NCBI GenBank assembly: GCA_023266095.1
Contig: JAHFRV010000022.1
Coordinates: 1-47,342 of the forward strand
Direction: 5' to 3'
DNA: 47,342 nucleotides
From: Gammaproteobacteria bacterium
Lineage (GTDB): Bacteria; Pseudomonadota; Gammaproteobacteria; DRLM01
Made by a program: the position numbers and the translations under genes. The notes below the pieces were generated by a model. It ran no database searches and was not told the origin of the DNA. It was given only the letters and a program-made list of their open reading frames with translations. This document shows, one piece after another, positions 726 through 22,820 of this stretch (position 1 is the stretch's first letter; every line of letters begins with the position of its first letter).

Positions 726-3365
726 ATGAGAAATGACTACAAAACAAGGAACGGCATAGCTAGCCATGCCGCGCCATTATTCCGCGTCGATAGGGTTTGG
801 CCATTGCTAGGCATGGTAGCGGTCTTGCTTTGTGCCTGCGGCGGCGTCGGCGGGAGCGGCCAGGACCCGGACCCGGTGATCGTGGACTTTCCCATCGCCT
901 ACATCAAGCGTCCGATACCTGTGGACGATCAAGGTAAGCCGGTGCGCGGCGATGCGCGCCGCGCCCTCAGCTTCAACACGGGAGGCGACTTGTATCTCCG
1001 CGAACGCGCCTCACCCAGTGCGACGGATAAGAACATCACCGCGCGCATTACCGGGGGCATGGGCGACGTCAAGGATGTCGAGGTTTCCTACGACGGCAAA
1101 CGGCTGCTGTTCGCCCTGCATGCCCCCGAGCTCAAAAACGTTACTGATGCGGAACAGCCCACATGGAACATTTGGGAATACGATATCGCCGCGGATCAGC
1201 TGCGGCGGATCATCGCCTCCGACATCACGGCGGAGGCGGGAGAGGATATCGCCCCCCACTATTTACCCGACAACCGCATCGTGTTCTCCTCCACCCGCCA
1301 GCGCCAGTCGCGCGCCATTCTCCTGGATGAGGGCAAACCCCAGTTCGCCGCCTTGAATGAGGATCTGCAGGAAGCGGCCGCGGTCTTACACGTGATGAAT
1401 GCCGACGGCACCGATATCCATCAAATCTCCTTCAACCAAAGCCACGATCTCGATCCCACGGTATTGAGCAGCGGTGAGGTCTTGTTCAGCCGCTGGGACC
1501 ACATGGGCAGCCGCAATGCCATCAGCCTCTATAAGATGCACCCGGATGGCAGCGAGCTGGAGGTGGTCTACGGTACGCACAGCCACGACACCGGCACCGA
1601 AGGCGCAACGGTGCAATTTCTCCAGCCCCGCGAAACGCTTGCCGGCAAGCTCACGACTTTACTCGCACCCTTTAGCAGCGGCCAAGGCGGCGGTGACTTG
1701 GTCATGATCGACGCGACCCACTATGTAGACCACGACCAGCCGGTCTGGTCCAGCCGCGGCCTACTCAGCGGCGAGGGGCAGACGCCAGCCACGGTGAATC
1801 AAATCCGCACCGACAATCGGCCCTCGCCCGGCGGCCGCTTTAACGCCGCTTTTCCGCTGTGGGACGGCACGGCGCGCGCCTTGGTGGCGTGGAGTCCGTG
1901 CCGGCTCCTGGACCAAGACAAAGTGCTGCCCTGTACCAGCGAACGGCTGGCGGCGGCGGATGTGCAAGAGGCCCCGCCGCTCTACGGCGCGTGGATCTAC
2001 GATTTCGATCAGAACATCCAACTGCCGGTGGTGATAGCCCAGGAGGGCTCGATGATCAGCGAAGTGGTGGCGGCACAACCCCGGCCCACCCTGCCCGCCC
2101 TCCTTTACGATAAGACCGCCGGCCTCGGCTTGGAGGCGAACAGCCTCGCGGAGGGGGTCGGCATCCTCCACATTCACAGTGTCTATGATCTGGACGGGGT
2201 CGATACCGCGCCCGGCGGCATCGCCGCCCTGGCCGATCCGTTACAGACTACGTCCGATCAACGTCCGGCCCGCTTCCTACGCATCGTCAAAGGTGTCGCC
2301 ATTCCCGATCGCCGCGTCCTGCGCCTCCCTGGCACAGCCTTCGGCGCAAGCAGACAACGCCTGATGCGGGAGATCATCGGTTACGTCCCCATCGAACCGG
2401 ACGGTTCGGTGATGGTGAACGTGCCGGCCAATGTGCCGCTCACCATCGACATCCTCGATAAAGACGGCCGGCGCATCAGCGCCGAACACCAGAACTGGAT
2501 CCAACTCCTTCCCGGGGAAACCAAGGAGTGCAGCGGCTGCCACGATCATAACAGCGGCGCGCCGCACGGCACCTCGGCAGGACCGCCGTCGATCAATCCC
2601 GGCGCCATTACCACCGGCCTCCCCTTCCCCAATACCGACCCGGCCCTGTATGCCGACCTGGGCGAGACCATGGCGCGGACGCGCGCGCGCATCAGTTGTC
2701 AGAGCGACTGCGCGGCGCTCTTGCCCCGAGTCGATATCAACTATGACGATGTGTGGACCGATGTCTTACTACGTACCAAAGATCCCAGTTTCAGCTATCG
2801 TTATGCCGACCTCGACACCCCAATGCCGGCCACCACCGACTGCCAAACCCAGTGGAACAGCCAATGCCGCGTCGTCATCAACTATGAGGGGCACATCCAT
2901 CCCCTATGGGGCAAGACCCGGGTGGTACTGGATGTCGACGGCGTCACCGTGCTGGCGGACAACACCTGCAGCTCATGCCACAACCCGGTCGACAACGCCG
3001 GCGCGCCACGGATTCCCGCGGCGCAACTCGACTTGACCAACGGCCCTTCCAGCGATCAAGCCGATCACTTCAAGGCCTATCGCGAGTTATTGATCACGGA
3101 TAATGAACAGGAGATCGTCAATGGCGCACTGCAAGACAAATTGGTGCCGGGGGTGGACGCCGACGGTCAACCGATACTGGTGCCCGTCCCCGTTAGCCCG
3201 TCCATGTCGGTGGCGGGCGCTCGCGCCAGCCGCTTTTTCAATGTCTTCGCCGCGACCGGCAGCCATGCCGGACGCTTGAGCCAGGCTGAATTACGCTTGC
3301 TGTCGGAATGGCTGGACATCGGCGCTCAGTATTACAACAATCCCTTCGCCGTCCCCGTGAACTGA
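726..3365 (+). CDS. HzsA-related di-CxxCH lipoprotein
   Basis: The 879-residue product has a lipobox (LLCAC, acylated Cys about residue 38), so it is probably membrane-anchored on the periplasmic side or outer membrane. Residues about 90-480 carry TolB-like beta-propeller segments (for example HVMNADGTDIHQIS and DGKRLLFA). Two heme c motifs follow: CSGCH at 602-606 and CSSCH at 748-752. Further cysteines at about 658-705 may form disulfides. This propeller plus C-terminal heme layout matches the family of proteins related to the alpha subunit of anammox hydrazine synthase. That is a family resemblance only: no beta/gamma subunit genes are present and hydrazine synthesis is not implied. It is the first gene of a co-directional run of exported proteins, and a TlpA-like thioredoxin four genes downstream could keep its heme-binding cysteines reduced (inference). 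The Shine-Dalgarno before the start is weak. Confidence 0.8.
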   Translation: MRNDYKTRNGIASHAAPLFRVDRVWPLLGMVAVLLCACGGVGGSGQDPDPVIVDFPIAYIKRPIPVDDQGKPVRGDARRALSFNTGGDLYLRERASPSATDKNITARITGGMGDVKDVEVSYDGKRLLFALHAPELKNVTDAEQPTWNIWEYDIAADQLRRIIASDITAEAGEDIAPHYLPDNRIVFSSTRQRQSRAILLDEGKPQFAALNEDLQEAAAVLHVMNADGTDIHQISFNQSHDLDPTVLSSGEVLFSRWDHMGSRNAISLYKMHPDGSELEVVYGTHSHDTGTEGATVQFLQPRETLAGKLTTLLAPFSSGQGGGDLVMIDATHYVDHDQPVWSSRGLLSGEGQTPATVNQIRTDNRPSPGGRFNAAFPLWDGTARALVAWSPCRLLDQDKVLPCTSERLAAADVQEAPPLYGAWIYDFDQNIQLPVVIAQEGSMISEVVAAQPRPTLPALLYDKTAGLGLEANSLAEGVGILHIHSVYDLDGVDTAPGGIAALADPLQTTSDQRPARFLRIVKGVAIPDRRVLRLPGTAFGASRQRLMREIIGYVPIEPDGSVMVNVPANVPLTIDILDKDGRRISAEHQNWIQLLPGETKECSGCHDHNSGAPHGTSAGPPSINPGAITTGLPFPNTDPALYADLGETMARTRARISCQSDCAALLPRVDINYDDVWTDVLLRTKDPSFSYRYADLDTPMPATTDCQTQWNSQCRVVINYEGHIHPLWGKTRVVLDVDGVTVLADNTCSSCHNPVDNAGAPRIPAAQLDLTNGPSSDQADHFKAYRELLITDNEQEIVNGALQDKLVPGVDADGQPILVPVPVSPSMSVAGARASRFFNVFAATGSHAGRLSQAELRLLSEWLDIGAQYYNNPFAVPVN

Positions 3366-3404
3366 GCGATGAACGAAACAACATCCGGTCTTCCTTAAAG
3401 CGAC

Positions 3405-4151
3405 ATGCGCACTACAGTGTTAATCTTGATCTCACAATACTTGTTCAGCGGCCTGGCCTACGGCTCGGAACCCTATCGAGAGGTACAGATCGCCGATCCC
3501 TTCATTGAGTTGCGCACCGGCGCGGGCCGCGGCTATCCGGTGTTTCTGGTGGTCGAGCGCGGCACAACCATCACCCTGCTTAAACGCAGAACCGACTGGT
3601 TCAAAGTGCGGACCGACAGCGATCAAGAAGGCTGGGTCGATATCCAGCAACTGGAACAGACCCTGTCTCCCTCCGGTGAAAAAACCCACATCGATGAGGT
3701 CGCGATCAGTGATTTTGCCGGATATCGTTGGTTAATGGGAGTAAGCGGCGGTGATTACGGCGGTGCGCGGGCCGTCAGCCTCTTCGGCGGCTACCGGTTC
3801 GCGCAACACCTGTCCGGAGAGCTCACGCTCAGCCAGGCCCTGGGAAATTATTCCAGCAGCGTGTCGGCCAAGGCCGGGGTGCTCGCCCACCCCTTCCCCG
3901 AGTGGCGCCTATCGCCATTCTTCGCCTTAGGTACCGGCGCGGTCCGCACCAGTCCCCGCGCCACCCTGGTACAGACCCCCGATCGTACTCATCAATTCGC
4001 GAATGTCGGGATAGGCGCCCAGTCCTATCTCAGCCGCCGTTTCGTTGTTCGGGTCGAATACAACGATTATGTTGTCTTCTCCGCCACCAGCGATCACGAC
4101 GCCAATGAGGAAATACACGAGTGGAAGGCCGGTTTCGCACTATTTTTCTAG
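3405..4151 (+). CDS. SH3-domain outer-membrane beta-barrel protein
   Basis: The 248-residue protein has a signal peptide (cleavage probably after LAYG). A bacterial SH3 domain spans about residues 26-82 (IADPFIELRTGAGRGYPVF, with GWVDIQQLE closing the fold). Residues about 105-248 alternate polar and hydrophobic residues with Gly/aromatic turns and end in Phe, typical of a small outer-membrane beta-barrel. Bacterial SH3 domains often bind peptidoglycan, so the protein may tie the barrel to the cell wall (inference). It starts 39 nt after the cytochrome-like gene and overlaps the next barrel gene by 31 nt, which suggests translational coupling. No specific function can be assigned. Confidence 0.75.
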   Translation: MRTTVLILISQYLFSGLAYGSEPYREVQIADPFIELRTGAGRGYPVFLVVERGTTITLLKRRTDWFKVRTDSDQEGWVDIQQLEQTLSPSGEKTHIDEVAISDFAGYRWLMGVSGGDYGGARAVSLFGGYRFAQHLSGELTLSQALGNYSSSVSAKAGVLAHPFPEWRLSPFFALGTGAVRTSPRATLVQTPDRTHQFANVGIGAQSYLSRRFVVRVEYNDYVVFSATSDHDANEEIHEWKAGFALFF

Positions 4152-4789
4152 GTTGCCTCGCGGCGATAGCGGTCAGTCTCTGCGCTCTGTGCACGACGGC
4201 GGCGCTCGCCGCGGAGCCCATGACGGCGGACACCGAACAGGTTATCAAACCGCAAGTGGAGCGGCGCGAAATCACCGTGCCCACCATCGACACCGAGGAT
4301 TTTGAGGTCGGCGTCTTTGGCGGAATGCTGAGTGTCGAAGACTTCGGCGTCAATCCCCTGCTCGGCGTCCGTGCCGCCTACCACCTCAGCGAAGACTTTT
4401 TTGTCGAGGCCGCCGTCGCTCAAACCACCACCACCAAGACCAGCTACGAACGCCTCAGCGGCGCGGCGGAATTGCTCACCTCCGACGAAAGAAAGCTGAG
4501 CTACTACAACCTCTCGCTCGGCTATAACGTCCTGCCCGGCGAGGCTTTCATTACCGCCAAGCATGCCTTCAATTCCGCCCTGTACCTCATCGCCGGCGCC
4601 GGCAGCACCCGCTTTGCGGGCGACGACAGATTCACCGTCAACCTGGGCGCCGGCTATCGCTTCTTGGCCACCGACTGGCTGGCCATACACGGCGACGTGA
4701 GAGACCATCTCTTCGACATGGACCTGTTCGGCGAGAAACAAACAACCAACAACATCGAACTCACTCTGGGGGCAACGGTTTTTTTCTAG
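4121..4789 (+). CDS. Outer-membrane beta-barrel domain protein
   Basis: A GTG start at 4121, preceded by GAGGAAA, gives 222 residues with a signal peptide ending at about AALA-AEP. After a short linker (about 35-60) the sequence is a run of beta strands (FEVGVFGGMLSVEDFGVNP, LSYYNLSLGYNV) closing with TLGATVFF, whose terminal Phe is a BAM recognition-type signal. It resembles the outer-membrane beta-barrel family common in myxobacterial envelope and gliding clusters, where it sits beside TPR lipoproteins; that match is from memory of family features, not a search. The gene overlaps the SH3-barrel gene by 31 nt and is followed 15 nt later by the TlpA gene, so all three should be co-expressed. 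Confidence 0.75.
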   Translation: MEGRFRTIFLGCLAAIAVSLCALCTTAALAAEPMTADTEQVIKPQVERREITVPTIDTEDFEVGVFGGMLSVEDFGVNPLLGVRAAYHLSEDFFVEAAVAQTTTTKTSYERLSGAAELLTSDERKLSYYNLSLGYNVLPGEAFITAKHAFNSALYLIAGAGSTRFAGDDRFTVNLGAGYRFLATDWLAIHGDVRDHLFDMDLFGEKQTTNNIELTLGATVFF

Positions 4790-4803
4790 TTAGGATATCC
4801 GCC

Positions 4804-5316
4804 ATGAATACTATAAAGTTCGTTACCCTGACCCGATTGATTGCGGCGTTGATAATCGGCGCATGCCTGACGCCCTACGCTGCGGCGGAAGTGATTCAAG
4901 GCAAGGCGCCCGATTTCACCTTGAAGAGCCAAAGCGGCGACAATCTAAAGCTCAGCGAATTGCGCGGTAAAGTGGTATTGATTAACTTCTGGGCATCGTG
5001 GTGCGGCCCCTGCCGCCAGGAAATGCCGGCGTTGGATCAACTCTACCAGCGCTATCGCTCGCTGGATTTCACCGTCCTCGGCGTCAATGTCGAGGAAAAC
5101 GCCGACGCGGCGAAGGCGCTGCTCAAGGACATACCCGTCACCTTCCCCATCTTGTTCGATAGCGCGAACAACGTGAGCAAACTCTATAAAGTCAGTGGCA
5201 TGCCTAGCACTATATTAGTGGATCGCGACGGTAACATGCGTTACCTGTATATGGGTTACCAGCGCGGCTACGAACAGGAATACCAAAACCAAGTCAGGGC
5301 CTTGATCCGCGAATGA
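4804..5316 (+). CDS. TlpA-family thiol:disulfide oxidoreductase
   Basis: This 170-residue periplasmic thioredoxin-like protein has an N-terminal signal or anchor (about residues 1-28) followed by an AhpC/TSA-Redoxin type fold. The active site is WCGPC with redox cysteines at residues 67 and 70, and the cis-Pro loop is SGMPST at about 135-140. TlpA/ResA/CcmG-type proteins reduce periplasmic disulfides, often for cytochrome c or copper-site maturation. Likely clients in the same operon are the two CxxCH motifs of the first gene or the Cys-containing tail of the DUF4266 protein encoded next; both are inferences. The downstream gene starts inside the stop codon (ATGA overlap), so the two are tightly coupled. 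Confidence 0.9.
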   Translation: MNTIKFVTLTRLIAALIIGACLTPYAAAEVIQGKAPDFTLKSQSGDNLKLSELRGKVVLINFWASWCGPCRQEMPALDQLYQRYRSLDFTVLGVNVEENADAAKALLKDIPVTFPILFDSANNVSKLYKVSGMPSTILVDRDGNMRYLYMGYQRGYEQEYQNQVRALIRE

Positions 5317-5543
5317 ACAGGCGATTCCACAACGGCATTTTACTGATAAGCGCATGCCTCATCGTGACGGCATGCGGAATGGAACCGTGGGTCAAGCCCT
5401 ATGAACGCGCTCACCTGGCCGACCCCATCATGAGCGGCGAGAGAAATCCCGTGGCGGACGCGTATATGCGTCATGTCTACCAAGCCCGCGAAGGCGCACG
5501 CGGCGCGGAAGGCGGCGGAGGCGGCGGCTGTGGTTGCAATTAA
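5313..5543 (+). CDS. DUF4266 small lipoprotein with Gly/Cys tail
   Basis: This 76-residue protein has a lipoprotein signal (lipobox LIVTAC, Cys about residue 21). The mature part carries the conserved WVKPYERAHLADPIM block of DUF4266 and ends in the striking tail GGGGGGCGCN. The family has no established function. It starts within the TlpA stop codon and is followed by a DUF3570 barrel gene; this TlpA/DUF4266/DUF3570 order recurs in other bacteria as far as I know. The two C-terminal cysteines could bind metal, carry a modification or be kept reduced by TlpA (inference). The polyglycine codons also contain the Shine-Dalgarno of the next gene. Confidence 0.85.
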   Translation: MNRRFHNGILLISACLIVTACGMEPWVKPYERAHLADPIMSGERNPVADAYMRHVYQAREGARGAEGGGGGGCGCN

Positions 5544-6684
5544 ATCCGTCCTTGTCAAATTGACGACGCTCGGCTCGATCATCGCCCTCTGCCACCCTGT
5601 GCACGGTTCCGCCGGCACACTCCCCGAGGAACGCGCCGATGCCCTTTACCACTCCTATGACGGCGGCGGCGTCAAGGTGGACGGACCATCGGTGCTGGTG
5701 CGCAAAAACCTGGGCAACAGCACTTCCGTGTACGGCAACTATTACGTCGACCACGTCTCCAGCGCCTCCATCGACGTCGTCACCCAAGGCAGCCCTTACC
5801 AAGAGGAACGCGAGGAAAAATCCGTCGGCGTGAATTACCTCAAAGGCGATGTAACGATGAACCTGGCTTACACTCACAGCGCGGAAAGCGATTACACCGC
5901 CAACAGCGCCAATTTCAAAATCAGCCAGGACATGTTCGGCGACCTCAGCACGATCTCCCTGGGTTATGCACGCGGCTGGGATACGGTACAAAAAAACGGC
6001 CAGCCCGATTTTTCCGAATCCGTCTCACGCAATAATTACCAGCTGGAACTGTCGCAAATTCTCACCAAGAACGCATTGCTGGGCGTTTCCTTCGAGGCCG
6101 TAACCGATGAGGGCTACTTAAACAATCCCTATCGCTCGGCACGTTATCTAGACCCCAGTAAGCCGCTTGGTTACAGCTTCGAGCCCGAGATCTATCCACG
6201 AACCCACACCAGCAGCGCAGTGACCGTCCAGGCCCGATACTATTTACCGTATCGCGCCGCTTTGCACGGGGAATTTCGGGTCTATGGCGACTCATGGGGC
6301 GTCAAGGCGCACAACGCGCAAATCGACTACACCCATCCGGCCGGGAACGGCTGGACCTTCGAGCTGCGATACCGCATGTACAGCCAAACCGCCGCCGACT
6401 TTTACAGCGATCTCTTCCCGAGACTTTCTTCGCAGAACTTTTTGGCCAGGGATAAAGAGCTGAGCACCATGACCAATCATACCGCGGGCGTGGGCGTCAG
6501 TTATGAGTTCACGCAAAGGGCTTGGCGCTACATCGACAAAGGAAGTTTGAACTTGTATTACGATCATATCGAGTTCGATTACGCGGATTATCGCGACATT
6601 AGCGTTGCCGACGGCGCTGGCGACGAACCCCTCTATCAATTTTCCGCCGATGTAATCCGGCTTTATCTTTCTCTCTGGTACTGA
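5530..6684 (+). CDS. DUF3570 outer-membrane beta-barrel protein
   Basis: I chose the GTG at 5530 because GGAGG at 5517-5521 lies 8 nt upstream and the resulting N-terminus is a normal signal peptide (VVAIKSVLVKLTTLGSIIAL, cleavage near HGSAG). An ATG at 5473 would add 19 residues (403 instead of 384) but lacks a ribosome site. The mature protein is a long series of amphipathic beta strands (TSVYGNYYVDHVSSASIDVV, VGVNYLKGDVTMNLAYTH) ending in LYLSLWY, an aromatic C-terminus typical of outer-membrane proteins. It belongs to DUF3570, function unknown. It overlaps the DUF4266 gene by 14 nt. The two probably act together at the outer membrane, with the lipoprotein as partner or substrate (inference). 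Confidence 0.85.
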   Translation: MVAIKSVLVKLTTLGSIIALCHPVHGSAGTLPEERADALYHSYDGGGVKVDGPSVLVRKNLGNSTSVYGNYYVDHVSSASIDVVTQGSPYQEEREEKSVGVNYLKGDVTMNLAYTHSAESDYTANSANFKISQDMFGDLSTISLGYARGWDTVQKNGQPDFSESVSRNNYQLELSQILTKNALLGVSFEAVTDEGYLNNPYRSARYLDPSKPLGYSFEPEIYPRTHTSSAVTVQARYYLPYRAALHGEFRVYGDSWGVKAHNAQIDYTHPAGNGWTFELRYRMYSQTAADFYSDLFPRLSSQNFLARDKELSTMTNHTAGVGVSYEFTQRAWRYIDKGSLNLYYDHIEFDYADYRDISVADGAGDEPLYQFSADVIRLYLSLWY

Positions 6685-6751
6685 ACATGCCGAGCCTATT
6701 TTCTCGAATCAAGCTGCCGCCCATCCCACTACCTCATAGGAAAATAAGCTC

Positions 6752-7312
6752 ATGAGAGCCCACCGACATATTTTATTTATGGTCCTCATGGCTGTGCTCT
6801 CCCTGACATCGCTGACGCATGCCTACGCGGCTGATAATGCGCAGGAGCATGCCGCGTCGACCTCAACGCCGGTGGAAAAAGAAATACAGTCGCTCAAGGC
6901 TCAAGTCCTTAAAATAAATCGCGAGCTGTTCATGATCGAGGAAGATATTCTATATCCGCAAAGCACCCAGTTCACGGTTTTCGTGCGATTGAATGTGGGC
7001 AATTTATTTGAACTCGATTCGGTACAACTGCGGGTTGACGACCAGATCGTCGCCCACTATCTCTACACCAAGCGAGAGCTCGCCGCGCTGAAAGAAGGCG
7101 GCGTGCAACGCCTGTATCAAGGTAACCTAAAAAGCGGCAGCCACGAATTCACGGCCTATTTCATCGGCAAGGGGCCGCACGACCGCGACTACAAACGCGG
7201 TGTAACCAAAGTGATCGGCAAAGAGCTGGCGCCGCTCTTCGTCGAACTCAATATCGTTGACGACGCCGGCCGGCAGCAACCGGATTTCGAAGTTGCCGTC
7301 TGGGATCAATGA
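6752..7312 (+). CDS. Exported coiled-coil / beta-sandwich protein, unknown
   Basis: The 186-residue protein has a signal peptide (cleavage near AYA-AD) and a short coiled-coil stretch at about residues 42-66 (VEKEIQSLKAQVLKINRELF). The remaining domain is beta-rich (about 75-186; FTVFVRLNVGNLFELDSVQL, GSHEFTAYFIGKG). I do not recognise a named family. Its predicted location is the periplasm. An AGGA site lies upstream of the start, and the stop overlaps the start of the following TPR gene (ATGA). This overlap pattern argues that it is a subunit or accessory factor of the same envelope assembly as its neighbours. Confidence 0.7.
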   Translation: MRAHRHILFMVLMAVLSLTSLTHAYAADNAQEHAASTSTPVEKEIQSLKAQVLKINRELFMIEEDILYPQSTQFTVFVRLNVGNLFELDSVQLRVDDQIVAHYLYTKRELAALKEGGVQRLYQGNLKSGSHEFTAYFIGKGPHDRDYKRGVTKVIGKELAPLFVELNIVDDAGRQQPDFEVAVWDQ

Positions 7313-9207
7313 TTCCAAAAGCGGAGCGTCCTGAAGTGAGTGCGGCACGCACCTCCAAATCACTATTGATCGCCCTGGTGCTGACCTGCCTGCTCGATAC
7401 CTATTCGGCAGCCGCGGCGGCCGGCGATCCGCCGCGCCCGCAGCCGGTCCGCGACCCTCGCTACGGGCTGGCGTTGTTCGACTATTATCAGGGCCACTAC
7501 TTCGACGCCATTACCGACATCATGGTCGCGCAGGCGAGAGCGCCCATTACCCAGCAAGGCAACGACCCGCAGCTGCTCTTGGGTTCTTTGTATCTTAGCT
7601 ACGGCATGCATGAGGCCGCCGCCGCTATCTTCCAACAGCTGTTGGATGGTGCAATAAATCCTTATAACCATGACCTGGCCTGGTTCTATCTTGGGAAAAT
7701 GCGCTATCAGGACGGCCGGTTCGCGGAGGCATTGACGGCACTCGCCACGGTCGGCGACACCCTGCCCACAGACAAGGACGCAGAACGACGCCATCTCATG
7801 ATCAACGCCCAGTTGCATGAGAAAAATTACGATGCAGCCCTGAACAGCCTGGAGGGACTCGAGCACGGCGGTATCTGGAATGCTTATTCCCTGTATAACA
7901 TCGGCACGACACTGATCCGGGCCGGTCGCGCCCAGGAGGCCGTCATTCTGCTACATCGACTCGGCCAAGTTGAACCCCGCGATGAAGAGCAATACGCATT
8001 GCGTGACAAGGCGAACATGGCGATCGGCTACGCCGCGCTCAAAGAGGGTGGCTTGGTCGATCCCGCCGCCTCTTTTTCCCGGGTGAGACTAAGCGGACCC
8101 TTCTCCAATCAGGCGCTGCTCGGCATGGGGTGGGCACACTACCTGCGAGACCTGCCGCAGGAGGCACTGATACCCTGGTTCGAATTGCGGGGCAGAGCGC
8201 CGGATCTGGCTACACAGGAAGGGTTGCTGGCCATCCCCTACACTCTCGAAAAACTCGGCGCGCCCGAGATGGCCTTGACTTACTATCAAAACGCCATCGC
8301 AAGCTATGACCAAGAGCGCGCTACGCTCGCTACGGCACTGTCCGCCACTGACTATGCGCGCTTACTGCAAACCAGTGTCACCAGCCCCAGCGACCCGGCG
8401 CGGCCGACCCTTGCCGACCAACTAGCGGAACTGCCGGCGGCGAGATATATGTACGACATCGTGTCCTCCGCCGAATTTCAGCAAACCTATCGCGACTACC
8501 GCGACCTGCACTACCTGTATGCGCAAGCAAGGCAATGGCAAGAAAAGATCCCGCTACTGCAATCCATGCTGGAGGACCGCCGCCGCCACTACACCACCAA
8601 CCTTGAAAAAATCGGGACATCCGATTACGCGCGGAGGCTTGCCGACCTCAACCGGCAGCACGCGGCCTTCTCGGAGAAAATAGCGAACATTGAAAGAAAC
8701 GAAACGATTTGGGCGCTTGCCGACCACAAGGAAAGAGAAGCCGATCAACAATTGCTCGAGATAAAATCGAGTCTCGATGCGTTATCGACCCACGGTTTGG
8801 ACGTAACGGCCGAGATGAAAAAATTCGGTATCTTGCATGGGATGTTGCAATGGCGGCTCAGGACCGAATTTCCGCAACGGCTATGGCGCCTCAAGAGGGA
8901 ACAACGCGCGCTGGATTATGACTTGGAGCAAACCGCGCGTGCGCAGTCGGCGCTCGACGCGGTACTGAAACTTACTCCCCTGAACTTCGACGGCCACGCC
9001 AAACGCATCTCTGATATTGAAACGACTCTGGTCAAGTTAACCCTGCAACTGGACGCCTCCATCGCCAGGCAGGAGCAATACTGTACCGCCCTCATCACCG
9101 AGGCCCTTAGCGCAAGAAAACGCCAGATCGAGGCATACCGAAGCCGGGCGCTCTATGCGCAAGCACGGCTCTACGACCAAATCAATCACGACGCCAGCCC
9201 GCCATGA
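7309..9207 (+). CDS. Periplasmic TPR / coiled-coil protein
   Basis: The 632-residue protein starts with a signal-like hydrophobic segment at about residues 18-38. Tetratricopeptide-type helical repeats follow over about residues 50-330 (LGSLYLSYGMHEAAAAIFQQ, AWFYLGKMRYQDGRFAEALT, LYNIGTTLIRAGRAQEAVIL). The C-terminal third is long, charged and helical, probably coiled coil (about 400-632). TPR arrays form protein-protein scaffolds; no catalytic motif is visible. It overlaps both neighbouring genes by four bases, so it is co-translated with the coiled-coil protein before it and the large TPR lipoprotein after it. Confidence 0.8.
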   Translation: MIPKAERPEVSAARTSKSLLIALVLTCLLDTYSAAAAAGDPPRPQPVRDPRYGLALFDYYQGHYFDAITDIMVAQARAPITQQGNDPQLLLGSLYLSYGMHEAAAAIFQQLLDGAINPYNHDLAWFYLGKMRYQDGRFAEALTALATVGDTLPTDKDAERRHLMINAQLHEKNYDAALNSLEGLEHGGIWNAYSLYNIGTTLIRAGRAQEAVILLHRLGQVEPRDEEQYALRDKANMAIGYAALKEGGLVDPAASFSRVRLSGPFSNQALLGMGWAHYLRDLPQEALIPWFELRGRAPDLATQEGLLAIPYTLEKLGAPEMALTYYQNAIASYDQERATLATALSATDYARLLQTSVTSPSDPARPTLADQLAELPAARYMYDIVSSAEFQQTYRDYRDLHYLYAQARQWQEKIPLLQSMLEDRRRHYTTNLEKIGTSDYARRLADLNRQHAAFSEKIANIERNETIWALADHKEREADQQLLEIKSSLDALSTHGLDVTAEMKKFGILHGMLQWRLRTEFPQRLWRLKREQRALDYDLEQTARAQSALDAVLKLTPLNFDGHAKRISDIETTLVKLTLQLDASIARQEQYCTALITEALSARKRQIEAYRSRALYAQARLYDQINHDASPP

Positions 9208-11996
9208 CCAGGTCACGGCTAGTCTGCATTGTTTTATTTTCACTACTTTCCGGCTGCGTCCATACGCCGCCGCAACCGCCCCTCATCGGCGATCTCGAGC
9301 CAAGACCCTCGCTAGTCACCTCGGCAAGTAAGCCAGATATCGACGCGGATGCCGTGGTGAGCCGCTATCGTGATTTCTTAACGGAGTCGCCCGACGACCC
9401 CGCCTACCGTGAGGCGCTCAGACGTTTGGCCGATATGGAACTGGAAAGCGCCGAGAGGATGCGGGACACGGCCGTGAAGACGGCGTCAGACCATGCCGAG
9501 GCGCAAGCCGCGATTGCGCTTTACGAGAAGTATCTGAATAACTACCAGGGAGACGACAACAATGAGCGGGTTCTTTATCAACTCGCCAAGGCCTATGACT
9601 TGATCGGTCGACTGGAGTCTTCGCTCGCCGTACTGGAGCGCCTGTTGCGGCAATATCCCGACGGAACCTATACGGAAGAGGCCCTGTTCCGCAGCGGCGA
9701 AATGCATTTTTCGCTGCGCGAGACCGCGGAGGCCGAGATCGCCTTCAAGGCCATCGTCGAGCAATACCCCGCTTCGACCTTTTACGAGCGCTCTCTGTAT
9801 ATGCAGGGCTGGTCACTCTATCTCGAAAATCGCCATCAGGAAACCTTGCAGACTTTTTTCAGCTTATTGAATCGGAAGCTGGGCAAGGACGAACTGACCG
9901 GCGCCGCCCTCGGGGCAAACCTGGCCAGGGCGGATCGTGAGTTGCTGGAAGATAGCCTAAAGGTCATTTGCTTGACCTTGTCGTATCTCGGGGAAACCCT
10001 ACCCATTGATAATTTATTGGCAGCCCTCGCCGATCATCCCTATGAGGGATTGGTCTATCGCCGACTCGGCGAGCTCTATCTCGAGAAGGACCGATACGGC
10101 GACGCCGCCAATGCTTTCCTAGGCCTGGCGCGCCGCAATCCCGACCACGCGCTGGCGCCGGAATTTCACCAATATGCGATCGACGCCTACCGCGCCGGGG
10201 GATTCCGCGATTTATCCCTCACCGCCAAATCTCGATTCGTCGCCCTGTATGGCGTCGACAGCCGCTATTGGCATACCCACGACCAAGCCAGCCACGCTGT
10301 CGTACGTCCCTATCTCGATGCGAATATCAGGGAACTGGCGACGCACTTTCACGCCCTTGCGCGACACAGCAAGGCCGCCCAGGATTTCGACTCCGCGATA
10401 AGCTGGTACCGCGAATACCTGAAGACCTTTCCCTCGGGAGCCCAGGCGGCGCAGATGAACTTTCTATTGGCCGAATGCCTGCAAGACGGCCAGCGACAAC
10501 TCGAGGCCATCACCGAAAATGAAAGAACCGCCTATCAATACGGCCTGCATGAAACCGGCGCTGAAGCGGGCTATACCGCCCTGTTGCTCTATTGGCAAGT
10601 TCTCCCCGATCTCGCCGAGGAAAAAAAGCTGGCATGGCGCCGCAAGGCCATCGAAAGCGCGCTGCGCTTCAGCGAACGCTACCCTGATTATGTGCATGTG
10701 GATAGCGTGCTCGCCAAGGCCACCGAAGAGCTATTTGCCATGCATGATTATGCGGGCGCCATCGACGCCGCGCGGCGCCTGCTCGATCGACCGGTACATA
10801 ACAATGTTGAGGCACGGTCTAACGCCTGGATCATTCTCGGTCACACCCAATTCGAGACAGGCGATTATGCCCATGCCGAACAGGCCTATCAGACGGCACT
10901 CGGGCTGCTGGCCGTCGAGGATCCGCGCAAAGCCGGTCTCATCGAGAACCTGGCCGCCAGCATCTACAAGCAGGGTGAACAACGGCGCGCGGCGGGTGAT
11001 TTGAAGTCGGCGGTGGCGCTGTTTCTGAAAATAGAACAGGCCGCACCGGCCATCTGGACCACTGCGCACTACGATGCCGCGGCCGCGCTTATTGAATTGG
11101 CGGATTGGTCCAGCGCGGCAACCCTACTCGAAGACCTCCTCCGCCGCGGATCAGGCGACGCCCAACTGCAGAACGGCGTGATCGAAAAGCTGGTGTTCGT
11201 CTATCTGAAGTCCGGTCAAAAAGTACAGGCGGCTCAGAAAATGGAAGCACTCGCCGCAGCCACCGCGGACCAACACCGTCGCAAAGATATCATTTGGGAG
11301 GCCGCGGCCTTGTATCAGTCGCTGGACGAAAAAAATGACGCCATCCGTCTGTTTCAGCGTTACGTCGCCGAATTTCCAAGTCCCGAGGCAGACGCCATCG
11401 AAGCCCGCTATCAATTGAGCGTCCTTTATGAACAACAGAGAAACACCGACGCAGCGCTGCACTGGTCACAGGAAATCGTCAAGGCGGATTTGGCGGCGGG
11501 TACGGCGCGCACGGATCGCACCCGGCGCCTGGCCGGCGAGGCGACCTTGCGTATAGCCCAGCCTCAATTGAACGCCTATCAAGACGCGAAGCTGGCTTTA
11601 CCCTTGGAAGAAAGTCTAAAAGTGAAGCAGGGTTTGATGGAGCAAGTCGTCGCCACCTATGACAAGGCGCTCGAGTATCACATCGCGGAAATCACCACCG
11701 CCGCCACGTATCAACTCGGCAGCATCTATGATCAATTCGCCAAGGCCATCCTGTCTTCCGATCGACCGCGCGGTTTGTCGAAGGATGAGCTTGAACAATA
11801 TGACCTCCTTTTAGAGGAGCAGGCCTTCCTCTTCGAGGAGCAGGCCATCAAGGTTCATGAGATGAACCTCAGTCATATCAGCGACGGGATTTACGACAAA
11901 TGGGTTGAGAACAGCCTGCGGGTACTGGCGACACTGCATCCCATTCGTTATGCCAAGACCGAAGAAAGCGAGACCTTCTACGATGTCATGCAATAG
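9204..11996 (+). CDS. Large TPR-repeat lipoprotein
   Basis: The 930-residue lipoprotein has lipobox LLSGC (acylated Cys18) followed by a Pro-rich linker. Almost the whole mature protein consists of TPR-like helical hairpins, for example YQLAKAYDLIGRLESSLAVL, ALFRSGEMHFSLRETAEAEI, FETGDYAHAEQAYQTALGLL and LYQSLDEKNDAIRLFQRYV. The layout resembles the TPR lipoproteins of myxobacterial gliding and secretion complexes and, at smaller scale, BamD, and suggests a periplasmic scaffold attached to the outer membrane. That role is inferred from architecture. It starts inside the previous stop codon and is followed after a few bases by a second TPR lipoprotein. It is the largest protein of the cluster. 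Confidence 0.82.
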   Translation: MTRSRLVCIVLFSLLSGCVHTPPQPPLIGDLEPRPSLVTSASKPDIDADAVVSRYRDFLTESPDDPAYREALRRLADMELESAERMRDTAVKTASDHAEAQAAIALYEKYLNNYQGDDNNERVLYQLAKAYDLIGRLESSLAVLERLLRQYPDGTYTEEALFRSGEMHFSLRETAEAEIAFKAIVEQYPASTFYERSLYMQGWSLYLENRHQETLQTFFSLLNRKLGKDELTGAALGANLARADRELLEDSLKVICLTLSYLGETLPIDNLLAALADHPYEGLVYRRLGELYLEKDRYGDAANAFLGLARRNPDHALAPEFHQYAIDAYRAGGFRDLSLTAKSRFVALYGVDSRYWHTHDQASHAVVRPYLDANIRELATHFHALARHSKAAQDFDSAISWYREYLKTFPSGAQAAQMNFLLAECLQDGQRQLEAITENERTAYQYGLHETGAEAGYTALLLYWQVLPDLAEEKKLAWRRKAIESALRFSERYPDYVHVDSVLAKATEELFAMHDYAGAIDAARRLLDRPVHNNVEARSNAWIILGHTQFETGDYAHAEQAYQTALGLLAVEDPRKAGLIENLAASIYKQGEQRRAAGDLKSAVALFLKIEQAAPAIWTTAHYDAAAALIELADWSSAATLLEDLLRRGSGDAQLQNGVIEKLVFVYLKSGQKVQAAQKMEALAAATADQHRRKDIIWEAAALYQSLDEKNDAIRLFQRYVAEFPSPEADAIEARYQLSVLYEQQRNTDAALHWSQEIVKADLAAGTARTDRTRRLAGEATLRIAQPQLNAYQDAKLALPLEESLKVKQGLMEQVVATYDKALEYHIAEITTAATYQLGSIYDQFAKAILSSDRPRGLSKDELEQYDLLLEEQAFLFEEQAIKVHEMNLSHISDGIYDKWVENSLRVLATLHPIRYAKTEESETFYDVMQ

Positions 11997-12000
11997 CGTC

Positions 12001-12591
12001 ATGAGGATAGCAAGCATGATCTTGTGGCTCGCGGCCTTCGCCGCCTGTAGCAGCGCGCCACAAAAACCGCAGATTGCATCACCCGAACCGCCGCCGACCA
12101 TCGAACTGACACAAGCTGATTACCAGCGCGCTTTAACCGCCCTCAAGGAAGGAAATGAACAGGAGGCCTTGACCTTGCTCACGGCGCTGACCCAATCTAA
12201 TCCCGAATTAGCGGCGCCTTACATCAACCTTGGCCTGATGGCGCTTAAGAAAGGCGATCTGCCGGCGGCCGAAACGGCATTGATGCACGCCGCAACGCTC
12301 AAGCCCGAATTAGCCGTGACCCACAATGCGCTGGGCATCGTCTATCGCCGATCGGGCCGCTTCGGCGAGGCGGAAGCCGCCTATCTCAAGGCGCTGCAAT
12401 GCCAGCCCGACTATGCCAGGGCGCATTTGAATTTAGGGATCTTATATGAAATCTACCTAAGCAATCCGAGCGCCGCCTTGGCGGAGTACCAGCGCTATCA
12501 GGAATTGAGCGGCGGAAGTAATGACTTGACGAATAAATGGATCATAGACCTCAAACAGCGTCTGGCCGTCACCACGGGACCCTCGAATTGA
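12001..12591 (+). CDS. Small TPR lipoprotein
   Basis: The 196-residue protein has signal MRIASMILWLAAFAACSS (lipobox FAAC, Cys16). A slightly longer start at 11983, overlapping the previous gene, is also possible. At least three TPR units cover about residues 38-170 (YQRALTALKEGNEQEALTLL, YINLGLMALKKGDLPAAETA, HNALGIVYRRSGRFGEAEAA). It resembles PilF/NlpI-like outer-membrane TPR lipoproteins, which act as assembly factors, but no pilus genes are nearby. The stop codon overlaps the start of the last gene of the cluster. It is the third TPR protein in a row, which points to a multi-subunit scaffold. Confidence 0.8.
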   Translation: MRIASMILWLAAFAACSSAPQKPQIASPEPPPTIELTQADYQRALTALKEGNEQEALTLLTALTQSNPELAAPYINLGLMALKKGDLPAAETALMHAATLKPELAVTHNALGIVYRRSGRFGEAEAAYLKALQCQPDYARAHLNLGILYEIYLSNPSAALAEYQRYQELSGGSNDLTNKWIIDLKQRLAVTTGPSN

Positions 12592-12902
12592 TGAAACACC
12601 TATTTAGCATCTTCATACTCGGCCTAGCCTCAATGCCGAATCTAATACACGCTGAAGAACGGATCGAACTTGAGCAAACGACGGTAACGGGAAATCGTGA
12701 GCTGCCGAAGATTACACACATCATTCCTTGGCAGACCGCGCAATTGGCGGCTCCGGAACCACCCCCGCTCGATCACCTCATCGATGACGCCCTGCTGCGT
12801 CTCGACCGCGACGCCTTCCGCCGCCGCATCCTTTACTACTATGAACTATTCCCTAGCGGTACCGCCGCCGACCAGTCATCTGCAACCGGGATAAAACCCT
12901 AA
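12591..12902 (+). CDS. Small exported protein, unknown function
   Basis: The start at 12591 overlaps the upstream stop codon and gives 103 residues with a clear signal peptide (MKHLFSIFILGLASMPNLIH, cleavage near HAEE). The mature part contains ELEQTTVTGNRELPKITHII, then a Pro-rich stretch and a basic acidic/arginine helix (DDALLRLDRDAFRRRILYYY). The TVTGNRELPK segment recalls the short element seen near the start of some TonB-linked or TPR-associated envelope proteins, but I recognise no family. It is the last gene of the cluster, followed by about 130 nt and a probable terminator. Confidence 0.65.
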   Translation: MKHLFSIFILGLASMPNLIHAEERIELEQTTVTGNRELPKITHIIPWQTAQLAAPEPPPLDHLIDDALLRLDRDAFRRRILYYYELFPSGTAADQSSATGIKP

Positions 12903-13142: not shown

Positions 13143-13170
13143 TTTACATACAATCATGACTGTATATAAT
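13143..13170 (+). promoter_or_regulatory. Efflux promoter with AcrR-type palindromic operator
   Basis: A -35 box TTTACA (13143-13148) and a perfect -10 box TATAAT (13165-13170) are separated by 16 nt. The spacer and flanks form a palindrome. The core ATACAATCA / TGACTGTAT (13148-13165) pairs at 8 of 9 positions, and the arms extend to a 26-bp site (13144-13169) with two mismatched pairs. This resembles the operators of AcrR/TtgR-type TetR repressors, whose half-sites contain TACATACA. An AcrR-like repressor is encoded at the end of the operon, so the simplest reading is repression of the pump by steric block of RNA polymerase. Confidence 0.75.
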
Positions 13171-20396: not shown

Positions 20397-21800
20397 CTAG
20401 TTGTTGAGCAGGCGTAACTCCACGCGGCGATTGGCGGCCCTACCCTGCTCCGATGCATTGTCCGCCACCGGCTTATCGGGACCGTATCCCTGCGCGGTCA
20501 GATTGGCGCTCGAAATTCCTTTCGACACCAGGTAGGTTCTTACCGCTTCGGCACGCTGCTGGGACAAGCGAATATTGTGCTGACGATTGCCGCGATTGTC
20601 GGTATGTCCCGCCACCTCGACTTTGAGATCGGCATTACGTCGCAGTGTTTCGGCGGCATCGTTCAAAATGGCTTCGGAATCCTGGGTGAGCCTGGCCGAG
20701 TTCGTGGCGAATGTGACACCTTCGAGCTTGATGACGGCGGCAAGCGCACAGCCCTTGTTGTCCACCTTCACCGCCGGCTTGGTATCAGGGCACTTGTCCA
20801 AATTATCGGTGATCCCGTCACCATCGCTGTCGACCACTATCTCGCAGCCGCTGGCATCCACCTTAACGCCGGCAGGTGTATTCGGACATTTATCCTGGGC
20901 GTCGACTACGCCGTCGCGGTCACTATCGACGGCCACCTCACAGCCACTGGCATTCACCTTGACGCCGGCAGCCGTATTCGGGCATTTGTCCTGGCTATCG
21001 ACTACACCGTCGCGGTCGCCGTCTACGTCCACTTCGCAACCACTGGTGTCGACCTTGACCCCTTTGACCGTGCCGGGGCATTTGTCCTGACTATTGGGAA
21101 CCCCGTCGTTGTCGCTGTCGCTTTCGACCTCGCAACCACTGGCGTCCACTTTGGCGCCGGCGCGCGTGCCGGGACAACGGTCACGACTGTCCAGCACGCC
21201 ATCAGCGTCGCCGTCCATATCGATGGGAGCTGCGGCGATGTGTTGCGGTTTCGCGCCCAGCGGTACGGCCAGACCCAAGTTGACCATCCAGTCGCCGAAG
21301 CGGTCTTGTCCCGCAATGCTGTCATTGTCATTGTCCATGCGATACCGGGCGTCGGCCCGCAGCGCCAGACCGTAGTCCGTCAAGTGGGCCATCACGCCCG
21401 CCCCGGCATTCAACATGGGATGAGTGCCGGAATTGCCGGCCACTTTGGTACGCAGTGCACCCGCGCCTACCACCAGGTAGGGGGAAAAACGCGGGGCGCG
21501 ATCAAAAAGGTACAAGCCATCTATGCCCAAACCGAGCTGGTCGAATTTTCCGGTGCCCGTGGATATATCCAGTTTATCCGTTGTGGCACTGAGTTCCATG
21601 TTCCAGTGTTCGCTTACGGCCTTGCCTATCCCCAATTGAAAACCCATACCATCATCGGCCTGACGGTCATCATCACCGATTAGGTAACTCACGCCTGGTG
21701 CGAGATACCAGCGATTATCAAACTCGGCTGCCTGTGCACCGGCCAGCGGCAACAGGGCCGCAGCAAGCAGTACGATTCCATATTTACGAGTACTCTTCAT
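20397..21800 (-). CDS. OmpA-family protein with TSP3 repeats
   Basis: The start at 21800 follows AAGGAGAATAGC and gives 467 residues with a signal peptide ending AQA-AEF. Residues about 24-185 form an N-terminal outer-membrane beta-barrel (WYLAPGVSYLIGDDD). About 190-345 carry five thrombospondin type 3-like calcium-binding repeats (units of the form DSDNDGVPNSQDKCPGT followed by VDTSGCEV). The last 115 residues are an OmpA_C peptidoglycan-binding domain (VEVAGHTDNRGNRQHNIRLS, LSQQRAEAVRTYL). The layout matches OprF-like porin/structural proteins that anchor the outer membrane to the wall. It is divergent from the two-component operon and may be its target (inference). Confidence 0.92.
   Translation of the reverse strand: MKSTRKYGIVLLAAALLPLAGAQAAEFDNRWYLAPGVSYLIGDDDRQADDGMGFQLGIGKAVSEHWNMELSATTDKLDISTGTGKFDQLGLGIDGLYLFDRAPRFSPYLVVGAGALRTKVAGNSGTHPMLNAGAGVMAHLTDYGLALRADARYRMDNDNDSIAGQDRFGDWMVNLGLAVPLGAKPQHIAAAPIDMDGDADGVLDSRDRCPGTRAGAKVDASGCEVESDSDNDGVPNSQDKCPGTVKGVKVDTSGCEVDVDGDRDGVVDSQDKCPNTAAGVKVNASGCEVAVDSDRDGVVDAQDKCPNTPAGVKVDASGCEIVVDSDGDGITDNLDKCPDTKPAVKVDNKGCALAAVIKLEGVTFATNSARLTQDSEAILNDAAETLRRNADLKVEVAGHTDNRGNRQHNIRLSQQRAEAVRTYLVSKGISSANLTAQGYGPDKPVADNASEQGRAANRRVELRLLNN
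20775..21240 (-). repeat. Five tandem TSP3-coding repeats
   Basis: Five in-frame units of about 30 residues, each with DxDxDGVxDxxDKCPxT and xVDxSGCE cores, are also recognisable as a DNA-level tandem repeat of about 90 bp. Such repeats can expand or contract by recombination. Confidence 0.7.
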
Positions 21801-22124
21801 TGCTATTCTCCTTGACAAATAATTCGGCGCTGTACCCATAGGCTCGGCCCTACTATTAACTAGGACTGAAAAGCTACAGCTATGGGGATATCCTCAAAAT
21901 GCGAGGGTATGAGTATTATCCGCTTATGCGATGCATTGACAATCGTCTCAGCGCGGAATTAACGAAAGTTAACATAGCCGCTGCACACAAAGTGCTTGAG
22001 GGGCACGATAATGTGAACCGCCAGATAACAGATAGGGACTGAGCGTCATTGGGGCGCGAGCGAGAAATCGTGATATCGTTTATTTTTTGCTCCGTAGTAA
22101 TATCGGAGCCGCGGGAGGTTGCCA
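21801..22124. promoter_or_regulatory. Divergent promoter region, ompA-like / two-component operon
   Basis: This 324-bp region must contain the promoters of the OmpA-like gene (minus) and the response regulator operon (plus). It includes the palindrome TTAAC-GAAA-GTTAA at 21959-21972 and a TTGACA at 21936-21941. The same palindrome architecture recurs upstream of the DUF481 gene at 28247-28260. No -10 box could be assigned with confidence. Confidence 0.45.
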
Positions 22125-22820
22125 GTGCGAATTGCGTTATTGGAAGACGAGCCGGCGCAGGCCGAGTTGTTGCGAAGCTGGCTGACGGAGGCGGGATATC
22201 ACTGCTACGTTTTTACCACGGGCGAAGCGATGCTGCGTGCGTTGGGCAGCGACAGCTTCGACTTGATGATCTTCGACTGGGAACTGCCGGGCATGAATGG
22301 GATCGAGGTTACCCGTCGGGTGCGGGAGCGTTGCGGCCGAAATCCGCCGATTCTCTTTGTTACGAGCCGCCATCAGGAAAAGGACGTGGTCGAGGGCCTC
22401 GCCGCGGGCGCCGACGATTACATGACCAAGCCCGCGCGCCGTCTGGAGTTGTTTGCCCGTTTACAGGCCTTGGCCCGCCGTGCCGCGCAGGTTAACGATG
22501 ACGCCTTGGAATTTCCACCTTATCGTTTTCTGAGTGACCAGCACGCCGTCAAGATCGGTGGCGAGACCGTGCAATTGACTGCCAAGGAATACCAGCTGGC
22601 CGAGTTCCTGTTTCGCAATGCCGGCCGCTTGCTGAGCCGCGGACATATCCTCGAAAGCGTGTGGGGGTTGCGTCACGACCTCAATACCCGCACCGTCGAT
22701 ACTCACGTGAGCCTGGTGCGCCATAAACTCGCCATCGATCCTGCGCGCGGTTGGCGATTGGCCACGATTTACCGCCACGGTTACCGTTTAGAGCGCTTCG
22801 ATGCCGCGGAGCAGGCGTAA
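22125..22820 (+). CDS. OmpR-family response regulator
   Basis: The GTG at 22125 is favoured because GGGAGG ends 7 nt upstream; the product begins VRIALLEDEP (231 residues). The receiver domain shows the acidic pair E8/D9, phospho-acceptor D51 (LMIFDWELPGMNG), T80 and K102 (MTKPA). The C-terminal winged helix (about 140-225) carries QLTAKEYQLAEFLFRNAGRL and RTVDTHVSLVRHKL, typical of OmpR/PhoB. Its stop is immediately followed by the LysM/FecR gene and then the CHASE2 kinase gene, so the cognate sensor is clear. It likely controls envelope genes, possibly the divergent OmpA-like gene (inference). Confidence 0.93.
   Translation: MRIALLEDEPAQAELLRSWLTEAGYHCYVFTTGEAMLRALGSDSFDLMIFDWELPGMNGIEVTRRVRERCGRNPPILFVTSRHQEKDVVEGLAAGADDYMTKPARRLELFARLQALARRAAQVNDDALEFPPYRFLSDQHAVKIGGETVQLTAKEYQLAEFLFRNAGRLLSRGHILESVWGLRHDLNTRTVDTHVSLVRHKLAIDPARGWRLATIYRHGYRLERFDAAEQA

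Follow-up and report, generated by a model that had tools for sequence, protein, structure and literature searches.

A motorless Glt-like envelope locus joined to an outer-membrane flavin/thiol redox gene set in a gammaproteobacterium, most likely served by the motor of a second locus

We analysed a 47,342-nucleotide stretch of DNA, hereafter the window, which is one contig (JAHFRV010000022.1, here C33) of a draft gammaproteobacterial genome (GCA_023266095.1) of 3.3 Mb and 96% completeness. Eleven open reading frames (ORFs) on the forward strand at 726-12902 form a cluster that we read, with a probability of about 0.6, as encoding the outer-membrane and periplasmic half of a Glt/Agl-type machine joined to a flavin/thiol redox set, with the motor provided in trans. 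The observations that bear on this reading are the gene content and conservation of the cluster, the linkage of ApbE to it across an insertion sequence (IS), the loss of the motor genes, a single GltG-type transducer on another contig (C79), and the statistics that connect motor loss to the presence of a second locus.

ORFs and families were checked in the window, with families assigned by Pfam and NCBIfam models, lipoboxes read from the sequence and signal peptides judged by eye. The cluster opens with a HzsA-like di-haem lipoprotein of propeller type with two CxxCH motifs (726-3365; PF18582, 64.4 bits; alignment to HzsA, 5c2v), followed by a protein with an SH3 domain and a small outer-membrane beta-barrel (3405-4151; PF08239 and PF13505) and by an OMP_myx_plus outer-membrane barrel (4121-4789), which scored 174.6 bits with TIGR04565 and passed its curated cut-off of 60. 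Then come a TlpA/ResA-like thioredoxin with a CGPC motif (4804-5316; PF00578 and PF08534; 117.6 bits with the NCBIfam ResA model, below the cut-off of 170), a DUF4266 lipoprotein with the C-terminus GGGCGCN (5313-5543; PF14086, 78.5 bits) and a DUF3570 barrel (5473-6684; PF12094, 127 bits), which by its motif and AlphaFold model is a predicted 16-stranded ApbE substrate. An exported protein with a coiled coil and a beta-sandwich of transthyretin/Ig-like type (6752-7312) matches no Pfam family and is a constant core member in Gammaproteobacteria. It is followed by three proteins with Pfam tetratricopeptide repeats (TPRs), a GltC-like protein (7309-9207), a GltD-like lipoprotein with the lipobox LSGC (9204-11996) and a GltE-like lipoprotein (11983-12591; 38 bits with the NCBIfam GltE model, below the cut-off of 225), and the cluster closes with a small exported protein of no family (12591-12902) that has homologs in the C79 locus and in relatives.

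An earlier reading of the letters alone (the sequence-only reading) had drawn these genes as one unit. The unit is real: all eleven ORFs lie on one strand, their order recurs in dozens of genomes, and every gene is under purifying selection, with ratios of nonsynonymous to synonymous polymorphism (pN/pS) of 0.19-0.40 when compared with the copy in a genome of the same genus (62-83% protein identity). The genes are closely spaced: four overlaps measure 1-4 bases, two others measure 14 and 31 bases, and a further one is 71 or 14 bases long according to which DUF3570 start is taken. The ATGA overlaps proposed earlier are exact at 5313, 7309 and 9204, while the fourth, at 12591, reads TGATG and shares a single base. 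Of the longer overlaps, the one at 4121 measures 31 bases; the proposed DUF3570 start at 5530 (14 bases) is possible, with 5473 (71 bases) as the alternative. The GltE-like gene starts at about 11983 and overlaps the preceding gene by 14 bases. Export of all products had also been claimed, and lipoboxes are visible in four of them (the HzsA-like, DUF4266, and second and third TPR proteins), the remaining seven having Sec-like N-termini by eye. Promoters and terminators were sought by consensus scans only, and these gave no convincing terminator inside the cluster.

The coiled-coil gene was present in 59 of the 274 Gammaproteobacteria genomes sampled. DUF4266 occurred in 66 genomes, namely in 46 of the 59 with the coiled-coil gene versus 20 of the 215 without it (Fisher p 1e-24), which is the opposite of the rare co-occurrence that would speak against one conserved unit; within the genomes, DUF4266 lay at most 15 kb from the coiled-coil gene in 29 of 56 coiled-coil loci. 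Neighbourhoods were taken from 69 fetched stretches and 80 further ones with names, annotated with profiles built for this analysis; the two sets partly represent the same genomes, so that counts across both are not independent. They reveal a conserved locus of about 20 genes whose order is the same in dozens of genomes: HzsA-like, sometimes a small cytochrome, SH3-barrel, OMP_myx_plus, TlpA, DUF4266, DUF3570 and sometimes ApbE, and then coiled-coil, GltC, GltD, GltE, small, ExbB, ExbD, ExbD and transducer. In an alternative arrangement the coiled-coil gene is immediately preceded by PSD2-like, LamG-cytochrome, DUF1501-like and ApbE genes, while the HzsA-like gene runs divergently and DUF4266 lies at a distance of 10-13 kb. 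The coiled-coil and small genes are constant in the core loci. In a phylum-wide sample the coiled-coil gene gave matches in this class and none outside Gammaproteobacteria. One core locus (L194), which has both motor and cytochrome genes, lies on a contig binned as Verrucomicrobiaceae, for which transfer or mis-binning is possible.

The window starts at a contig end, and the true locus reaches beyond it. Positions 94-124 hold the end of an IS, made up of an inverted repeat at 94-116 (the reverse complement of GGGTCTACGCGGATTAGTGTGGG) and then the target duplication ATATTTAT. The repeat GGGTCTACGCGGATTAGTGTGGG occurs at 26 places in the genome, nearly all of them within about 120 bases of contig ends, and the 8-mer ATATTTAT beside it pairs C33 with contig C91 and with no other contig end. 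Seven further pairs of contig ends are matched by 8-bp duplications, giving eight pairs in total. The end of C91 (L129) and the start of C33 carry opposite ends of one IS. C91 ends in four genes, for ApbE and DUF1501-like, LamG-cytochrome and PSD2-like proteins, and in the same-genus genome (G002, L128) PSD2-like, LamG-cytochrome, DUF1501-like and then ApbE genes stand divergently upstream of the HzsA-like gene. Because the 8-bp duplication matches, the IS ends are opposite and the gene order is that of L128, we conclude that C91 probably joins C33, with the IS lying between the HzsA-like gene and the PSD2-like gene, and that the locus would include ApbE; this join was deduced and not sequenced. 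The ApbE on C91 is the only one found in the genome, and many relatives have an ApbE gene in the interval from DUF3570 to the coiled-coil gene or close to it. The sequence-only reading missed this enzyme, which explains the DUF3570 protein, because the contig ends at the IS. At the level of the assembly, a high-copy IS with 8-bp AT-rich target duplications breaks the sequence at about 26 contig ends. Adjoining ApbE in the same-genus genome is a gene for a protein with a long (AREQA)n repeat (L128, 14442-16412).

The acceptor region of the window DUF3570 protein is DHVSSASIDVVTQGS (residues 93-107), in which the two sites read SSAS and TQGS. Of 52 DUF3570 relatives, with or without ApbE in the fetched stretch, 49 retain the pattern D.[VI][ST].A[ST].D, and S107 is invariant in an alignment of 34 rows. 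Judged from these alignments, the acceptor glycine is relaxed and the putative acceptor residues are kept. Taking the degenerate motif as proof that flavinylation was lost was considered and dropped, since relatives with an adjacent ApbE show the same variant motif. The AlphaFold model of the protein (predicted local distance difference test score (pLDDT) 83, predicted template modelling score 0.75) has 16 long strands; its best fold match is CdiB (6wim; Z 18.9, root mean square deviation (rmsd) 3.9 over 284 residues), and OmpF and other outer-membrane barrels were also matched. In this model the loop joining strands 3 and 4, on the long-loop side, contains or adjoins the acceptor serines, and residues 104-107 have a pLDDT below 50. 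In normal porin topology the long loops face outward, and for these reasons the acceptor loop is probably on the outer face, the topology being transferred from porins.

The partners of this barrel also have conserved features. The CGC tail of DUF4266 is kept in all relatives listed. The HzsA-like product has CxxCH motifs at residues 602 and 748 and aligns to hydrazine synthase alpha (5c2v 502-561) around the first of them; the middle domain and two CxxCH haem sites are shared. The two proteins differ at the haem-ligand tyrosine of HzsA, presumably Tyr591, eight residues after the first CxxCH cysteine: this position is a serine in the window protein and never a tyrosine in its relatives. With the tyrosine missing and only 54.9 bits against a cut-off of 800 with the equivalog model for hydrazine synthase alpha, hydrazine synthase activity was ruled out, and by its sequence the product is a predicted di-haem relative of HzsA, not a hydrazine synthase. 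The genome has no PF02683 match despite encoding several CxxCH proteins and TlpA-type thioredoxins.

Within the scaffold part of the cluster, the model of the coiled-coil protein (pLDDT 83) consists of a helix and a transthyretin/Ig-like sandwich. A fold search with it hit nothing but a widespread beta-sandwich (best match with Z 9.1 and rmsd 2.7 over 97 residues), which names no function; the modelled helix and sandwich would fit an adaptor role. The TPR architecture, gene order and lipoboxes fit the naming of the three TPR proteins after GltC, GltD and GltE, and the resemblance to the Glt machinery noted in the sequence-only reading was right. These proteins also match YbgF, BamD and CpoB models, and a PDB sequence search with the GltC-like protein found consensus TPRs only.

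In most orthologous loci, ExbB, ExbD, ExbD and GltG-type genes stand directly after the small gene. We found no ExbB/ExbD/ExbD motor after 12902 in the window, nor at the locus of the same-genus genome, and no GltG-type transducer with an AgmX/PglI domain in the window locus. A contig edge as the reason was ruled out, since the contig continues past the 3' side of the cluster and the same-genus relative shows the same absence. The genome does contain such genes, in a paralogous locus on C79 (L003) whose coiled-coil protein is 41% identical to that of the window. Its order is TlpA-like, coiled-coil, fused TPR, TPR lipoprotein, small, ExbB, ExbD, ExbD and TonB-like transducer; the fused TPR protein (L003, 5226-9833; 1535 residues) corresponds to the window GltC-like and GltD-like proteins, which are encoded by separate genes in most other loci. 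The C79 transducer scored 63.9 bits with the AgmX/PglI C-terminal model (cut-off 40), its end matches the GltG model, and it is the sole copy: one AgmX/PglI-type transducer over the cut-off was found per genome in this genome (G000), in G002 and in G003. The earlier statement that ExbB, ExbD and TonB genes are absent thus holds for the window locus and not for the genome. In this family and one other, the motor-bearing paralog (L003, L014-L017, L092) adjoins a conserved block of sulfite-reductase-like, CysH-like, LysR/CysB-like, TauE-like and phosphoribulokinase-like genes, named by reading the sequences.

We compared 13 motorless with 16 motor-bearing loci, all with redox or cytochrome genes and with enough flanking sequence. 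A second coiled-coil (core) locus was present in 12 of the 13 motorless genomes versus 2 of the 16 motor-bearing ones (p 2e-5); the latter two include a broken second copy in G267, without which p is 3e-6. With one count per family, the tally with and without a second locus was 6/1 versus 2/11 (p 0.004). The second locus visibly bears a motor in 10 of the 12 cases, and in the remaining two it is truncated by a contig end. In a GltC tree, the supported clade that contains the window and its relative has 34 rows, of which 30 are not motorless, and the supported branches require the motor to have been gained or lost five times or more. The motor was lost from the window locus and is not absent by ancestral design. 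Because of the second-locus statistics, the GltC tree and the purifying selection on the cluster, the motor is most likely supplied in trans by the second locus.

In the mechanism we propose, a Glt-core-like scaffold (the coiled-coil, GltC-, GltD- and GltE-like and small proteins) would be joined to an outer-membrane redox set. ApbE would attach flavin mononucleotide to Ser99 and Ser107 of DUF3570, TlpA and the CGC tail of DUF4266 would exchange thiol electrons, and the HzsA-like and LamG-cytochrome haem lipoproteins would carry electrons at the outer membrane. Electrons may pass among TlpA, DUF4266, the DUF3570 flavins and the haem lipoproteins, either at the outer membrane or across it, in a conjectural direction. 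The TPR proteins would form a periplasmic scaffold that the C79 transducer reaches by putative physical contact, so that the single C79 motor and transducer set drives the window scaffold in trans, and the force on the scaffold may serve the assembly or the operation of a surface redox conduit. A bolder version, which we offer tentatively, is a machine of Glt/Agl ancestry, driven by the proton-motive force, that directly operates an outer-membrane electron conduit in which flavins bound covalently in the outward loop of the 16-strand barrel receive electrons from thiol and haem carriers, one motor locus being able to drive two different outer-membrane halves per cell.

Several points weigh against the reading of a joined machine with a motor in trans. 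The two published [S/T]GA[S/T] acceptor motifs are not matched in the window DUF3570, and no match to the DsbD family (PF02683, DsbD_TM/CcdA) was found in the 96% complete genome. Homology of the GltC-, GltD- and GltE-like proteins to the Myxococcus Glt proteins is assigned by architecture, a search of the control genomes having returned no M. xanthus Glt proteins, and the cluster proteins are known from their genes alone. The genomes are drafts, and the GltC tree was built quickly and has many weakly supported inner branches. Six MotA/TolQ/ExbB proteins besides that of C79 (seven in total) are encoded in the genome and could serve instead, or the scaffold may need no motor.

The redox set (DUF3570, DUF4266, TlpA and ApbE) and the TPR core could also be separate units that share an operon, with the redox set acting as the published flavin/thiol system, for example in metal reduction. 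Many loci have the core without the redox set, among them 36 motor loci with neither module in the fetched stretch; DUF4266 is found without the core in the 20 sampled genomes mentioned above, and C79 is a nearly bare core in this very genome. We nevertheless consider such independence unlikely in view of the strong co-occurrence of DUF4266 and the coiled-coil gene (p 1e-24), the same-strand and often overlapping packing, and the two alternative architectures that hold the whole set together. Less probable again is a cluster for outer-membrane assembly and maturation, in which the thioredoxin and BamD/CpoB-like TPR lipoproteins would fold and insert barrels and haem lipoproteins with no electron transport or motor. 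The YbgF, BamD and CpoB matches agree with this, and a TlpA-type thioredoxin would suit the cysteine management of CxxCH proteins, but ApbE and the conserved acceptor serines point to a working redox cofactor, and motor genes lie directly downstream in most orthologs. A machine for gliding or surface motility like that formed by Glt in Myxococcus, suggested by the OMP_myx_plus barrel over its cut-off and the AgmX/PglI C-terminal transducer on C79, is very improbable for a window locus that has no motor. We disfavour most strongly the view that this is a duplicated locus decaying as a relic since it lost its motor: the motor genes are missing and an IS sits in the upstream intergenic region, but the eleven ORFs are intact, a relative has the same set at 62-83% protein identity with the low pN/pS given above, and motor loss arose repeatedly and persists within families.

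ExbB/ExbD-type motors with TPR partners are also found in the Vibrio TonB2/TtpC-type and Tol-Pal systems, from which the present system differs: the locus has no TonB-dependent receptor gene, and the transducer on C79 carries the AgmX/PglI C-terminal domain. The gammaproteobacterial Glt core, as set out in the consulted portion of Luciano 2011 (PMC3169522), consists of the TPR proteins GltC, GltD and GltE, the transducer GltG, the motor AglRQS and one extra gene that occurs in gammaproteobacterial and not in myxobacterial loci, and that portion leaves the core without a known function. The C79 locus has this layout. The likeness of the window locus lies in TPR genes of putative GltC/D/E type in one region, in a possible counterpart of the extra gene, for which the coiled-coil and small genes are candidates, and in the motor and GltG-type transducer of most orthologous loci and of C79; the differences are that the window locus lacks motor and transducer and has a haem/flavin/thiol outer-membrane set absent from this part of the Luciano account. 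Meheust 2021 (PMC8238504) described a DsbD/ApbE/DUF3570 flavinylation set with a DsbD-family membrane donor, paired acceptor sites [S/T]GA[S/T], a thioredoxin-like protein and DUF4266 with a CxC tail, reported 316 clusters without a linked DsbD, and left the purpose of DUF3570/DUF4266 electron transfer uncertain. ApbE, DUF3570, a thioredoxin-like protein and the DUF4266 CxC tail all occur in our locus, the ApbE-DUF3570 linkage being direct in many relatives and L128 and here spanning the inferred IS junction. Differences are the missing DsbD-family protein, the SSAS/TQGS motif, the TlpA/ResA type of the thioredoxin, and the linkage to HzsA-like and LamG cytochromes, barrels, a TPR scaffold and a motor.

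Strictly defined, neither published system includes this locus, and it appears that both halves are known separately and their union is undescribed; a literature search, which did not cover subscription journals, found nothing on the combination of the Glt core with ApbE, DUF3570 and DUF4266. The sequence-only reading was right in suggesting a redox-linked outer-membrane assembly, and its claim that no such system had been described stands for the combination and not for the parts, which PMC3169522 and PMC8238504 cover. A link to electron uptake by the Tenderia biocathode, prompted by the name of a relative (Biocath_Gamma_008), was rejected, as the Tenderia paper has a TPR gene with triheme cytochromes and none of these families.

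Elsewhere in the window, an RND (resistance-nodulation-division) pump operon unrelated to the cluster follows 12902, with a promoter-like site (11/12) ahead of it at 13143-13170. An OmpA-like protein on the reverse strand (20397-21839) has repeated calcium-binding-like repeats of the form D-x-D-x-D-G-V-x-D-x-x-D-K-C-P. By eye, a response regulator, a LysM/FecR-type protein and a CHASE2-like histidine kinase stand in a row at 22119-26839 and are a possible envelope-sensing unit.

The Glt core and the DUF3570/DUF4266 set, each left without a clear purpose in the literature, form one locus in many Gammaproteobacteria, and each is thereby a clue to the function of the other. With the acceptor serines placed on its long-loop side, the barrel model predicts surface flavins. 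Because the motor has been lost repeatedly, and almost exclusively in genomes that have a second core locus, these genomes offer a direct and testable case of shared motors, and the union of the two gene sets suggests that proton-driven force and redox chemistry are coupled by one machine at the cell surface.

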